A stretch of 29,594 nt of DNA, taken from contig JAHAYB010000308.1 of assembly GCA_018384835.1 (NCBI GenBank), positions 1 through 29,594 on the forward strand, given 5' to 3'. This DNA comes from Comamonas sp. GTDB lineage: Bacteria > Pseudomonadota > Gammaproteobacteria > Burkholderiales > Burkholderiaceae_C. Below, one piece after another: positions 11,781 through 17,273 of this stretch. Each line of letters starts with the position of its first letter. The stretch's first letter is position 1. The translations under genes were made by a program, and so were the position numbers. The notes beneath the pieces are model-generated. The model was not told the DNA's origin. It worked only from the letters and a program-made list of their open reading frames with translations, and ran no database searches.

Positions 11781-13982
11781 TTGCAAAGCCACCCACCCAC
11801 CCCCGCCATCCTGCATATTGCGGTGGATACCCCCCTGCACAGCCGGGTGGGTGCGCTTTTAAGTTACCAGCACAGCCAGCAGCTCCCCCCCGGTAGCTTG
11901 GTGCGTGTGCCCCTAGGGCGGCGGGAATTGCTGGGTGTAGTTTGGGATGCCCCCCCCCCGGCCCGCGCCCTAGATGCCAGCATCCCCCTACGCCCCATTG
12001 CCTGCGCACTGGCCTCAGCCGCCAGCGAGGCAGCGCCCGGCTTGCCGCCTCAGCCTCCTCCTCTGTCCCCTCTTTCCCCCGCTTGGCGGCAACTGGTGGC
12101 GTTTGCCGCCCGCTACTACCAGCGCAGCCTGGGCGAGGTGGCGACTATGGCGCTGCCCCCGCTGCTACGCAAAACCAGCCCCGCGCAATTACAGCGGCGC
12201 TTACAAAAAGCCCAAAAAAGTACGGCAGCAAGCAACAGCAAAAGCGGCAATAGTGGCAAAAGCGGCAAACAAGCCCTAGCACAAACTCTAGCGCAAGCCC
12301 CCGCTACAGCGCCGCCCCTGAGTGATGAGCAAGCCGCCGTCTGCCAGCGCATCCTGGCCGATGCGGGGCCTTTCCTGCTCTACGGCAGCACCGGCAGCGG
12401 CAAGACCGAGGTCTATCTGCACATCGCCCACACCCTGCTAAGTGCCCAACCCCAGGCGCAGGTGTTGGTGCTAGTGCCGGAAATCAACCTCACCCCGCAA
12501 CTGCTGGCACGGTTTGAGGCGCGGTTTTGCCCGCAATGGGGGGCGCAAGCCGTGGTTAGCCTACACAGCGGCCTGACTGAGGCGCAGCGCCTGAACCACT
12601 GGCTAGCTGCCCACCTGGGGCAGGCGCGTATTGTGCTGGGTACGCGCATGGCCATTTTGGCCAGCCTGCCGCAACTAGCCCTGATTGTGGTGGATGAGGA
12701 GCACGACCCCAGCTTCAAACAGGAAGAAGGCGCACGCTACCACGCCCGCGACCTGGCGCTGTGGCGCGGCAAGCACGAAGGGGCGAAAGTGATTCTGGGC
12801 AGCGCCACCCCCTCGCTAGAGAGCTGGCACGCCTGCACCACAGGCCGCTACCAGCGCCTAGACATGCCCAGCCGCGTCGGCGCTGCCGCCCTGCCCCAAG
12901 TGCGTCTGTTGCCCATGCACCAATGGCCAAAAAACACCTGGCTAGCCCCCCCCCTGCTGCAAGCCATGACCAAGCGGGTGGAGCGTGGCGCGCAAAGCCT
13001 GGTGCTGCTCAACCGCCGTGGTTTTGCCCCCGTACTGTTCTGCGCCGATTGCGGCTGGAAAAGCGACTGCCCCCATTGCAGCGCCCACCAGGTATTTCAC
13101 AAAAGCGAGCGCCGCCTGCGCTGCCACCATTGCAGCGCCAGCCAACCCGTGCCGCGCCATTGCCCCAGTTGCGGCAATGCCGACATCCTCCCTCTGGGCG
13201 CAGGAACCCAGCAACTGCAAGAGGCGCTAGAGCAGCAGCTACGCAACGTACAGCGCCCCGACGGACAACCCGCCCGCATTGCCCGCATTGATGCCGACAC
13301 CACCCAGGGCAAAGACCAGTTGCAGCAACTGCTGGCTGATATGCACAGCGGCGCAATCGATGTGTTGGTAGGCACGCAAATGGTGGCCAAGGGGCATGAC
13401 TTTCGGCGCATCAGCTTGGTGGCGGCTGTGCAGGCCGATGCAGCGCTCTACAGCAGCGACTTTCGTGCGCCGGAGCGGCTGTTCTCTCTGCTACTGCAAG
13501 CAGCAGGCCGCGCTGGGCGTGATGCGCAATTTATGGCCGCCCAGTCCAGCCAGGCACAAATGTGGGTGCAGACCCACCAGGCCGAGCACCCCCTCTACCA
13601 AGCCTTGCAGGCGCATGATTACCCGCGCTTTGCCCAGCAGCAACTGCAAGAGCGCCAAGAGGCGGGGATGCCACCCTTCGTCTTCCAAGCCCTGCTACGC
13701 GCTGATGCCAAAACGCAAGAGGCCGCCCAAGACTTTTTACGCACTGCTGCCGCGCTAGGGCAGGCGTTGGCTGCTGCCCAAGGGGTGTTTATCTACCCAC
13801 CAATACCGCTGGCCGTGCAGCGCGTGGCCAATATCGAACGCGCCCAAATGCTGCTAGAAGCGGGCAGCCGCACCGCCTTGCAACGCTTTTTGCAGGCTTG
13901 GCAGCCCAGCCTGCACCAGTTGCGCGGCCAGCACAAAAGCCTAGTGCGCTGGCTGGTGGATGTGGACCCGCAGAGTCTTTGA
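11781..13982 (+). CDS. priA: Primosomal replication restart helicase PriA (replication factor Y)
   Basis: A 733-residue superfamily 2 DNA helicase that recognises stalled forks and reloads the replisome. The only credible start is TTG 11781, right after hemE, because the fork-binding N-terminus (HIAVDTPLHSRVGALLSYQHSQ) begins a few codons later. Walker A is GSTGSGKT (202-209), the DEEH box is D305-H308, and there are eight zinc-binding cysteines (C421, C424, C430, C433, C448, C451, C461, C464). GTQMVAKGHDF and AAGRAGRD are helicase motifs. A Lys/Ser/Gly-rich linker at about 140-175 is longer than usual. The reading frame contains unusual poly-C tracts of 7, 10 and 9 bases. The 3' end overlaps the convergent deacetylase gene by 42 bases. 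Confidence 0.96.
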   Translation: MQSHPPTPAILHIAVDTPLHSRVGALLSYQHSQQLPPGSLVRVPLGRRELLGVVWDAPPPARALDASIPLRPIACALASAASEAAPGLPPQPPPLSPLSPAWRQLVAFAARYYQRSLGEVATMALPPLLRKTSPAQLQRRLQKAQKSTAASNSKSGNSGKSGKQALAQTLAQAPATAPPLSDEQAAVCQRILADAGPFLLYGSTGSGKTEVYLHIAHTLLSAQPQAQVLVLVPEINLTPQLLARFEARFCPQWGAQAVVSLHSGLTEAQRLNHWLAAHLGQARIVLGTRMAILASLPQLALIVVDEEHDPSFKQEEGARYHARDLALWRGKHEGAKVILGSATPSLESWHACTTGRYQRLDMPSRVGAAALPQVRLLPMHQWPKNTWLAPPLLQAMTKRVERGAQSLVLLNRRGFAPVLFCADCGWKSDCPHCSAHQVFHKSERRLRCHHCSASQPVPRHCPSCGNADILPLGAGTQQLQEALEQQLRNVQRPDGQPARIARIDADTTQGKDQLQQLLADMHSGAIDVLVGTQMVAKGHDFRRISLVAAVQADAALYSSDFRAPERLFSLLLQAAGRAGRDAQFMAAQSSQAQMWVQTHQAEHPLYQALQAHDYPRFAQQQLQERQEAGMPPFVFQALLRADAKTQEAAQDFLRTAAALGQALAAAQGVFIYPPIPLAVQRVANIERAQMLLEAGSRTALQRFLQAWQPSLHQLRGQHKSLVRWLVDVDPQSL
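11950..11959 (+). repeat. C10 homopolymer inside priA
   Basis: Ten consecutive C bases encode part of DAPPPA near residue 58 of PriA. C7 lies at 11885-11891 and C9 at 12946-12954 in the same gene. The frame is open as given. Tracts of this length are prone to slippage and to sequencing error. Confidence 0.9.
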
Positions 13983-16322: not shown

Positions 16323-17273
16323 TTATTGTGCCGCTGCCGGGCTGAACACCTTGGAAGCGACTTGGTTGCGGCCTTGGTTTTTGGCGGTGTACAGGGCGGT
16401 ATCGGCTTGTTGGAGCAGTGCTTGGGCTGTCAGGCTGGGGGGCAGTTCGGAGGGTGTGGCATCCAGCTCCAGCGCTACCGCCCCCAGGCTGAGGGTGACG
16501 TGGCTGGCCGTAGGCGATTGGGCGTGGGGCAAGGCCAAATCAGCGATGGCGCGGCGCAGCTGCTCGGCCTTATCCAAGGTGGCTTGGTGGTTGCAGCCCG
16601 GTAGCAGGCAAACAAACTCTTCGCCGCCATAGCGCGCTAGCAGGTCGTAGGGGCGCTGCATGTGCTGCTGCAAGGTTTGCGCGACTGCTTGCAAGCAGGT
16701 GTCGCCTTGCTGGTGGCCGTAGTGGTCGTTGTAGCGTTTGAAGTGGTCAATATCCATCATCACCAAGCCCAGGCTTTCGCGCTGGCGCAGGCTGTGTCGC
16801 CAGGCGCTGTCTAGCGCCTCGTTAAAGCGGCGGCGGTTGGCTACGCCGGTTAGGCCATCCATAAAGGCCAGGGAGCGCAAAAAATCGCTTTGCGCCTTGA
16901 GCGTTAAATGCGTTTTGACGCGGGCGCGTACCACCGCTGGGTTGACGGGCTTGCTGATAAAGTCCACGCCCCCGGCTTCTAAGGCGGCGCTTTCTTCTTC
17001 GCTGCTCGACTGGGCAGTTACGAAGATGATGGGGATGTCTGCAGTGAGCGCATCGGCCTTGAGCAGGCGGCAAAGCGCCAGGCCATCCATCTCGGGCATG
17101 ATGATGTCCAGCAAAATCAAATCGGGCGGGGGCTGGCGTTGGCACAGCGCCAAGGCTTGGGCGGCACTGGTGGCGGCTAAGACGGTGTGGTCGGCCTGAA
17201 AAATTTGGTGCAGGCTTTGGATGTTGATGGGTTGGTCATCCACTATCAGTAGGCGCGGGGGCGGGGCGGTCAT
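16323..17273 (-). CDS. Response regulator with GGDEF output (diguanylate cyclase)
   Basis: A 316-residue REC-GGDEF protein. The start is ATG 17273, which overlaps the stop of the hybrid kinase gene (ATGA); a longer in-frame opening to 17468 only reads through the kinase's Hpt region. The receiver has acidic D12/D13, phosphoacceptor D56 in LILLDIIMPEMDG, T86 and K108 (FISKP). The GGDEF domain begins at MDGLTGVANRRRF, has MMDIDHFKRYND, the active site GGEEF (216-220) and an intact inhibitory site R207-P-Y-D210 five residues earlier. It should make cyclic-di-GMP from two GTP with product feedback. The 4-base overlap makes the kinase its probable phosphodonor. Confidence 0.95.
   Translation of the reverse strand: MTAPPPRLLIVDDQPINIQSLHQIFQADHTVLAATSAAQALALCQRQPPPDLILLDIIMPEMDGLALCRLLKADALTADIPIIFVTAQSSSEEESAALEAGGVDFISKPVNPAVVRARVKTHLTLKAQSDFLRSLAFMDGLTGVANRRRFNEALDSAWRHSLRQRESLGLVMMDIDHFKRYNDHYGHQQGDTCLQAVAQTLQQHMQRPYDLLARYGGEEFVCLLPGCNHQATLDKAEQLRRAIADLALPHAQSPTASHVTLSLGAVALELDATPSELPPSLTAQALLQQADTALYTAKNQGRNQVASKVFSPAAAQ

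Follow-up and report, generated by a model that had tools for sequence, protein, structure and literature searches.

In the Arn pathway, synthesis by ArnC is followed by deblocking by ArnD, flipping by ArnEF and transfer of the sugar by ArnT, a glycosyltransferase of the GT-C fold. In Francisella, the deacetylase NaxD is paired with a synthase that we take to be FlmF2 and not FlmF1. The text section that lists flmF2 (FTN0545) next to flmK (FTN0546) names neither NaxD nor FlmF1. According to excerpts of the respective reports, lgmA-C are required for glucosamine on Bordetella lipid A, lgmD is not essential, and the lgm genes are controlled by BvgASR (PMC4993483); NaxD of Acinetobacter serves the placement of galactosamine on lipid A (PMC6635527, PMC11279074) and is only a minor factor in colistin resistance (PMC6635527); and the three-component Gtr system consists of GtrA, GtrB and a GT-C transferase (PMC11127046). 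A review passage on the lipid A of Comamonas testosteroni describes the acyl chains and leaves phosphate substituents unmentioned (PMC7956469). Here, we analyze a stretch of 29,594 nucleotides (nt) from Comamonas sp. (contig JAHAYB010000308.1 of assembly GCA_018384835.1; hereafter the window), which is one contig of a 2.82 Mb metagenome-assembled genome (MAG; 526 contigs, 85.4% complete, 4.6% contamination), and focus on a gene run in which a hybrid sensor kinase and a REC-GGDEF diguanylate cyclase precede a family 2 glycosyltransferase (GT2), a GtrA-like membrane protein and a YdjC-type deacetylase.

We propose, with a probability of roughly 0.66 and judging from sequence comparison, that the GT2, GtrA and YdjC genes form the donor half of a surface-sugar system that would be completed by a GT-C transferase other than ArnT, and that the kinase and cyclase genes were juxtaposed to them by rearrangement. 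GT2 would place an N-acetylhexosamine onto undecaprenyl phosphate, YdjC would remove the acetyl group so that an amino sugar with a positive charge results, and flipping of the amino-sugar lipid to the periplasm would be the task of GtrA. There, a GT-C of a non-ArnT PMT_2 subfamily, encoded on other contigs, would move the sugar to a lipopolysaccharide (LPS)-type acceptor, possibly lipid A; we infer the identity of the sugar, the order of the steps and the acceptor. The kinase and the diguanylate cyclase would have been placed upstream by a lineage-specific rearrangement, and GT2 would keep its own −10-like signal, making co-transcription with the cyclase gene possible, not needed. The features in question are the following:

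15231..16316, minus strand: GtrB/ArnC-like GT2, 361 amino acids (aa); Pfam Glycos_transf_2, 99 bits.
14777..15223, minus strand: GtrA-like membrane protein, 148 aa, putative undecaprenyl-phosphate-sugar flippase; GtrA_DPMS_TM, 68 bits.
13941..14780, minus strand: YdjC/ChbG-superfamily deacetylase, 279 aa; Pfam YdjC, 156 bits; motifs DD, GLH, DGHQHVH and MCHP.
16325..16330, minus strand: −10-like hexamer CACAAT within the last REC-GGDEF codons, putative leaderless start signal.
16323..17273, minus strand: REC-GGDEF diguanylate cyclase (GGEEF; RxxD five residues ahead); GGDEF, 173 bits, and Response_reg, 94 bits.
17270..21259, minus strand: hybrid sensor kinase, start codon uncertain; PAS_3, HisKA, HATPase, REC and Hpt.
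11781..13982, plus strand: priA, convergent neighbor.

All five genes from the kinase to the deacetylase lie on the minus strand, and the kinase gene is part of the same run as REC-GGDEF and the cassette: its stop and the REC-GGDEF start share 4 nt (17270-17273). The REC-GGDEF end (16323) is followed after 6 nt by the GT2 ATG (16316), the GT2 end (15231) after 7 nt by a possible GtrA start (15223), and the GtrA stop (14777) overlaps the YdjC ATG (14780) by 4 nt. An earlier sequence-only reading of the window had described this order with its 6- and 7-nt gaps and 4-nt overlap, which the coordinates confirm. At the other end, priA and the deacetylase gene converge, their 3' ends sharing 42 nt (13941-13982).

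The closest solved structure of GT2 is GtrB sll0501 (294 bits), followed by ArnC (149 bits), and GT2 is 43% identical to Escherichia coli YfdH (GtrB) and 30% to ArnC. Columns that are invariant across 12 YdjC relatives include the four motifs listed above, and the best solved relative of the 12-sequence profile is a chitooligosaccharide deacetylase. HpnK and ChbG were rejected as identities of the deacetylase, with scores of 36.9 bits against an NCBIfam cut-off of 232.6 and of 35.5 bits against a cut-off of 227, respectively. A YdjC tree with two HpnK rows and E. coli ChbG, from which one further HpnK row (L302) as well as L295 and L072 were excluded, places the window deacetylase apart from both, and its grouping with the two HpnK rows is rejected (p-AU 0.007, approximately unbiased test). 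The enzyme has neither of the two affiliations that the sequence-only reading had named as speaking against its proposal. That reading's assignment of the three proteins as GtrB-like GT2, GtrA-like membrane protein and YdjC-type deacetylase is borne out by the Pfam matches and PDB relatives.

GT2 relatives are found in 42 of 53 genus genomes (E ≤ 1e-40) and in 44 of 100 family genomes (E ≤ 1e-60), the own genome included in both counts, and YdjC relatives (E ≤ 1e-25) in 21 of 250 order genomes. We compared one locus per genome from 40 of the 41 other GT2-bearing genus genomes, with about 9 kb on each side and less at contig ends; this set contains neither G125, with a GT2 of 42% identity, nor the second copy in G105. 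Within 3 kb of GT2, all 40 loci have YdjC, 39 have GtrA and 29 have a GT-C of the Comamonas type. Because the three genes stay together in relatives, the GT2/GtrA/YdjC set is more than a chance association: it is a conserved cassette that is ordinary in the genus.

Within the own genome, PMT_2 (PF13231) matches are confined to two contig ends that have 97 identical bases in common, and the two pieces together appear to encode the N- and C-terminal portions of a single protein, of the type we call class A. The DNA carrying the C-terminal piece is native to the genus, with identities of 71-84% for the best-matching segment in each of eight genus genomes, which makes contamination unlikely. Ten other genomes of the genus have a class A GT-C gene, nine of them immediately upstream of GT2 and the tenth, G105, on a contig that lacks GT2. 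Class B (upstream) and class C (divergent) replace class A in other genus genomes, class B being that of the closest relatives whose flank is assembled (G136, G115, G138, G129); the PMT_2 assignment was tested directly for classes A and C and follows for class B from its similarity to A. An AAA ATPase-like gene starts 43 nt after the own C-terminal piece (locus L074), and related DNA is present at three places of G136; this is perhaps a mobile or variable locus.

The relationship of these proteins to ArnT was addressed at several levels. E. coli ArnT and the transferase partners from Bordetella, Achromobacter and Acinetobacter match one another at E 3e-33 or better, and classes A, B and C yielded no phmmer match to these ArnT-group proteins; a class-C-like protein of L042 matches the Bordetella transferase weakly (E 1.5e-7). 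A PDB search with a class A sequence gave no match, and none of the NCBIfam models matched the three proteins, one per class, that were compared with them. An AlphaFold model of the class A protein from Delftia tsuruhatensis (mean pLDDT, the predicted local distance difference test, 72; 18 sequences) has Cupriavidus metallidurans ArnT as its first PDB match, at a template modeling score (TM-score) of 0.48 and with oligosaccharyltransferases close behind. Going by this model, the class A protein and ArnT belong to the same GT-C superfamily, which does not yet establish them as the same enzyme. We further sorted 178 loci, a non-random sample that includes the window, by the identity of their GT2 to that of the window, and assigned the type of any GT-C within 4 kb by the better score. 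At a GT2 identity of at least 60%, 44 of 59 loci have a Comamonas-type GT-C, one has ArnT and 14 have neither (38, 1 and 12 of 51 after removal of seven twice-fetched contigs and the window), while below 60% ArnT accompanies 67 of 119 loci, the Comamonas type 12 and neither 40, a group in which duplicates may remain. The cassette lineage of the window is paired with a GT-C family separate from ArnT/LgmB. As for the final, ArnT-like transferase to be sought in the genome, a cassette-type GT-C does lie on other contigs, yet it has no ArnT/LgmB match, and the own assembly (85% complete) yielded no gene of the ArnT/LgmB type; such genes are present in 19 of 53 genus genomes.

Turning to the start of GT2, the hexamer CACAAT ends 8 nt before the ATG and covers the last codons and the stop of the cyclase gene, and no Shine-Dalgarno sequence is visible there by eye. 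In 27 of 43 loci, a motif NA[CAG]AAT precedes an in-frame GT2 ATG by 6-8 nt. As background, 92 related loci (1.6 Mb) were scanned at ATGs opening 100 codons with 80 GT2 starts masked, and NACAAT is again most frequent at this spacing (32 cases at 8 nt, 25 without repeated starts; fewer than 10 at 24 of 30 distances). In the window it is found 6-8 nt ahead of 5 of 907 ATGs. Three of these are likely gene starts with a spacing of 7-8 nt, namely hemE (10632, plus strand), a methyltransferase gene (3700, minus strand) and GT2 (16316, minus strand); of the other two, one opens a frame on the strand opposite an aminotransferase gene and one a short frame. The recurrence of NACAAT at three gene starts suggests leaderless promoters in the genus, and CACAAT at its spacing of 8 nt suggests for GT2 a leaderless start, again something we infer, that would predate the rearrangement.

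The signalling genes upstream behave differently from the cassette. Neither REC-GGDEF nor the kinase stands beside GT2 in any of the 40 genus loci, and the closest genus relatives of the cyclase (G138, G129, G108, G136) adjoin a kinase on contigs other than that of GT2. The second flank of the pair is also novel: in L162, dnaB and rplI stand ahead of the phoH block, a position that the kinase takes in the window. The own dnaB lies near the end of a short contig (L321, 113-204); there its reading frame stops while homology to relatives continues for about another 90 nt, either because the gene has really changed or through a fault in the assembly. The 112 nt of this contig that follow the dnaB match bear no resemblance to the L162 flank, which fits a real rearrangement, while the shortness of the contig keeps an assembly chimera alive as an explanation. 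These 112 nt open a 36-codon frame that has no Pfam match and looks Hsp70-like by eye. The kinase/cyclase pair seems to sit at a rearrangement breakpoint and to have come beside the cassette by lineage-specific rearrangement. The coupling to cyclic di-GMP (c-di-GMP) signalling put forward in the sequence-only reading is not reproduced in the 40 genus loci and is best read as an adjacency of the own genome, an accident of position. A plasmid origin of the region was considered and rejected, with one 80-base match only. In the proteins themselves, the RxxD of the cyclase is presumably an I-site as in PleD, and the kinase matches dCache_1 below the family cut-off only.

Several observations weigh against the proposed donor half with a non-ArnT terminal transferase and its own start signal. 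The own GT-C gene is unlinked to the cassette and broken across contigs, and 11 of the 40 genus loci have no Comamonas-type GT-C nearby, among them L126, which is truncated by the end of its contig, and L158 (G141), with an ArnT-type gene in its place. At the GT2 start, a sigma-70 scan gave nothing, the motif is missing in 16 of 43 loci, and the window has CACAAT as opposed to GA[CAG]AAT in relatives. Moreover, some other N-acylated hexosamine is conceivable as the sugar. A classical lipid A modification of the Lgm/Nax kind, in which an ArnT-type enzyme moves the amino sugar onto lipid A phosphates, is in our view unlikely, even though ArnT genes accompany the cassettes of Bordetella pseudohinzii, Achromobacter insuavis and Acinetobacter sp. 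ANC 3789, lgmA-C and NaxD are tied to glucosamine and galactosamine on lipid A in the excerpts cited above, and ArnT leads the structural matches of the modelled GT-C. It is opposed by the phmmer comparisons, in which none of the three Comamonas classes matched E. coli ArnT or the Bordetella transferase, by the failure to find an ArnT-type gene in the own assembly, by a TM-score as low as 0.48 with oligosaccharyltransferases so close, and by phylogeny: Bordetella and Achromobacter GT2 form a 10-row clade (98/99) without the window GT2, and the Bordetella YdjC clade is separate from the window YdjC, so that the kinship to Lgm proteins expected from the sequence-only reading did not emerge. Because of the lacking ArnT/LgmB match, the lacking ArnT-type gene and the separate clades, lipid A as the target is an analogy; what holds of the function first proposed is an amino-sugar donor kit on undecaprenyl phosphate, which the sequence comparisons support, whereas its 'lipid A, by ArnT' part rests on that analogy. 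Both GT-C kinds flank one GT2 in separate reading frames at L042, L046, L049, L050, L253, L274 and L288, six of which also have YdjC. It is conceivable, if somewhat less probable than its converse, that the cassette is a donor module for two GT-C families, which at least seven distant loci hold together, and that the window lineage swapped ArnT for the second of them (three subfamilies in the genus); a single kind of lipid-linked amino sugar would in that case be delivered to two acceptors, such as lipid A and another site on the LPS.

That kinase, cyclase and cassette constitute one c-di-GMP-controlled operon regulating envelope charge appears improbable to us. The common strand, the 4-nt overlap and the 6-nt gap would suit such an operon, as would another c-di-GMP gene in the window (MASE3-PAS-GGDEF-EAL, 7038-9899) and the analogy to the Bordetella lgm genes under BvgASR, described in an excerpt of PMC4993483; yet the linkage recurs in none of the 40 genus loci, GT2 shows a motif typical of an own start and no visible Shine-Dalgarno sequence, and both flanks of the kinase pair are unlike those of relatives. 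The MASE3 gene lies in a stretch of 47% G+C, compared with 53-64% in the other 2-kb windows, and was possibly acquired. Least probable of all, we would give an assembly chimera at the junction only a slight chance: the MAG is fragmented into 526 contigs, two novel adjacencies surround the kinase pair, and the own dnaB, whose counterpart neighbors phoH in relatives, ends early near a contig end, whereas the genes meeting at the GT2 junction have intact ends and starts, no junction 31-mer recurs in own DNA (the window and four contigs, one of them in part), the sole contig overlap seen measures 97 nt, and the sequence beyond the own dnaB match departs from the L162 flank as a real rearrangement would have it.

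Should the reading of a donor cassette with a non-ArnT terminal transferase hold, many environmental beta-proteobacteria decorate their envelope with amino sugars by a route that bypasses ArnT, and searches for ArnT would therefore miss such systems. Likewise, a GT-C family of which three proteins went unmatched by NCBIfam would gain a testable donor. Regarding regulation, the case would illustrate that genes packed closely behind a diguanylate cyclase gene may have come together only recently, and that such packing does not prove control by c-di-GMP.

Among the known systems, the loci of B. pseudohinzii and A. insuavis (GT2-ArnT-YdjC) and of Acinetobacter sp. ANC 3789 (YdjC-GT2-GtrA-ArnT) are, in our reading of gene content and organism, lgm and nax. 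The window resembles the NaxD cassette of Acinetobacter and Francisella in having YdjC beside GT2, with GtrA also present in the ANC 3789 locus, and in a YdjC outside HpnK and ChbG; the NaxD-associated transferase, however, matches ArnT, whereas the window has no adjacent transferase and a different GT-C elsewhere in the genome. With Bordetella lgmABC, as read in B. pseudohinzii, it shares the GT2 and YdjC partners, GT2 being 50% identical, but there the transferase partner is of the ArnT family, and in Bordetella L287 the GT2, transferase and YdjC genes are consecutive on the strand, with no GtrA between them. A GtrB-like synthase and GtrA recall the three-component Gtr system of O-antigen glucosylation, whose GT-C transferase may have its counterpart in the unlinked class A PMT_2 gene split over two contig ends; to that system the window set adds a deacetylase. 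The order of steps proposed for the cassette is that of the Arn pathway, with a GT2 only 30% identical to ArnC, YdjC in place of ArnD and GtrA in place of ArnEF. Taken together, we regard the window set as a variant of the Nax/Lgm and three-component Gtr systems with an alternative family of terminal transferase.

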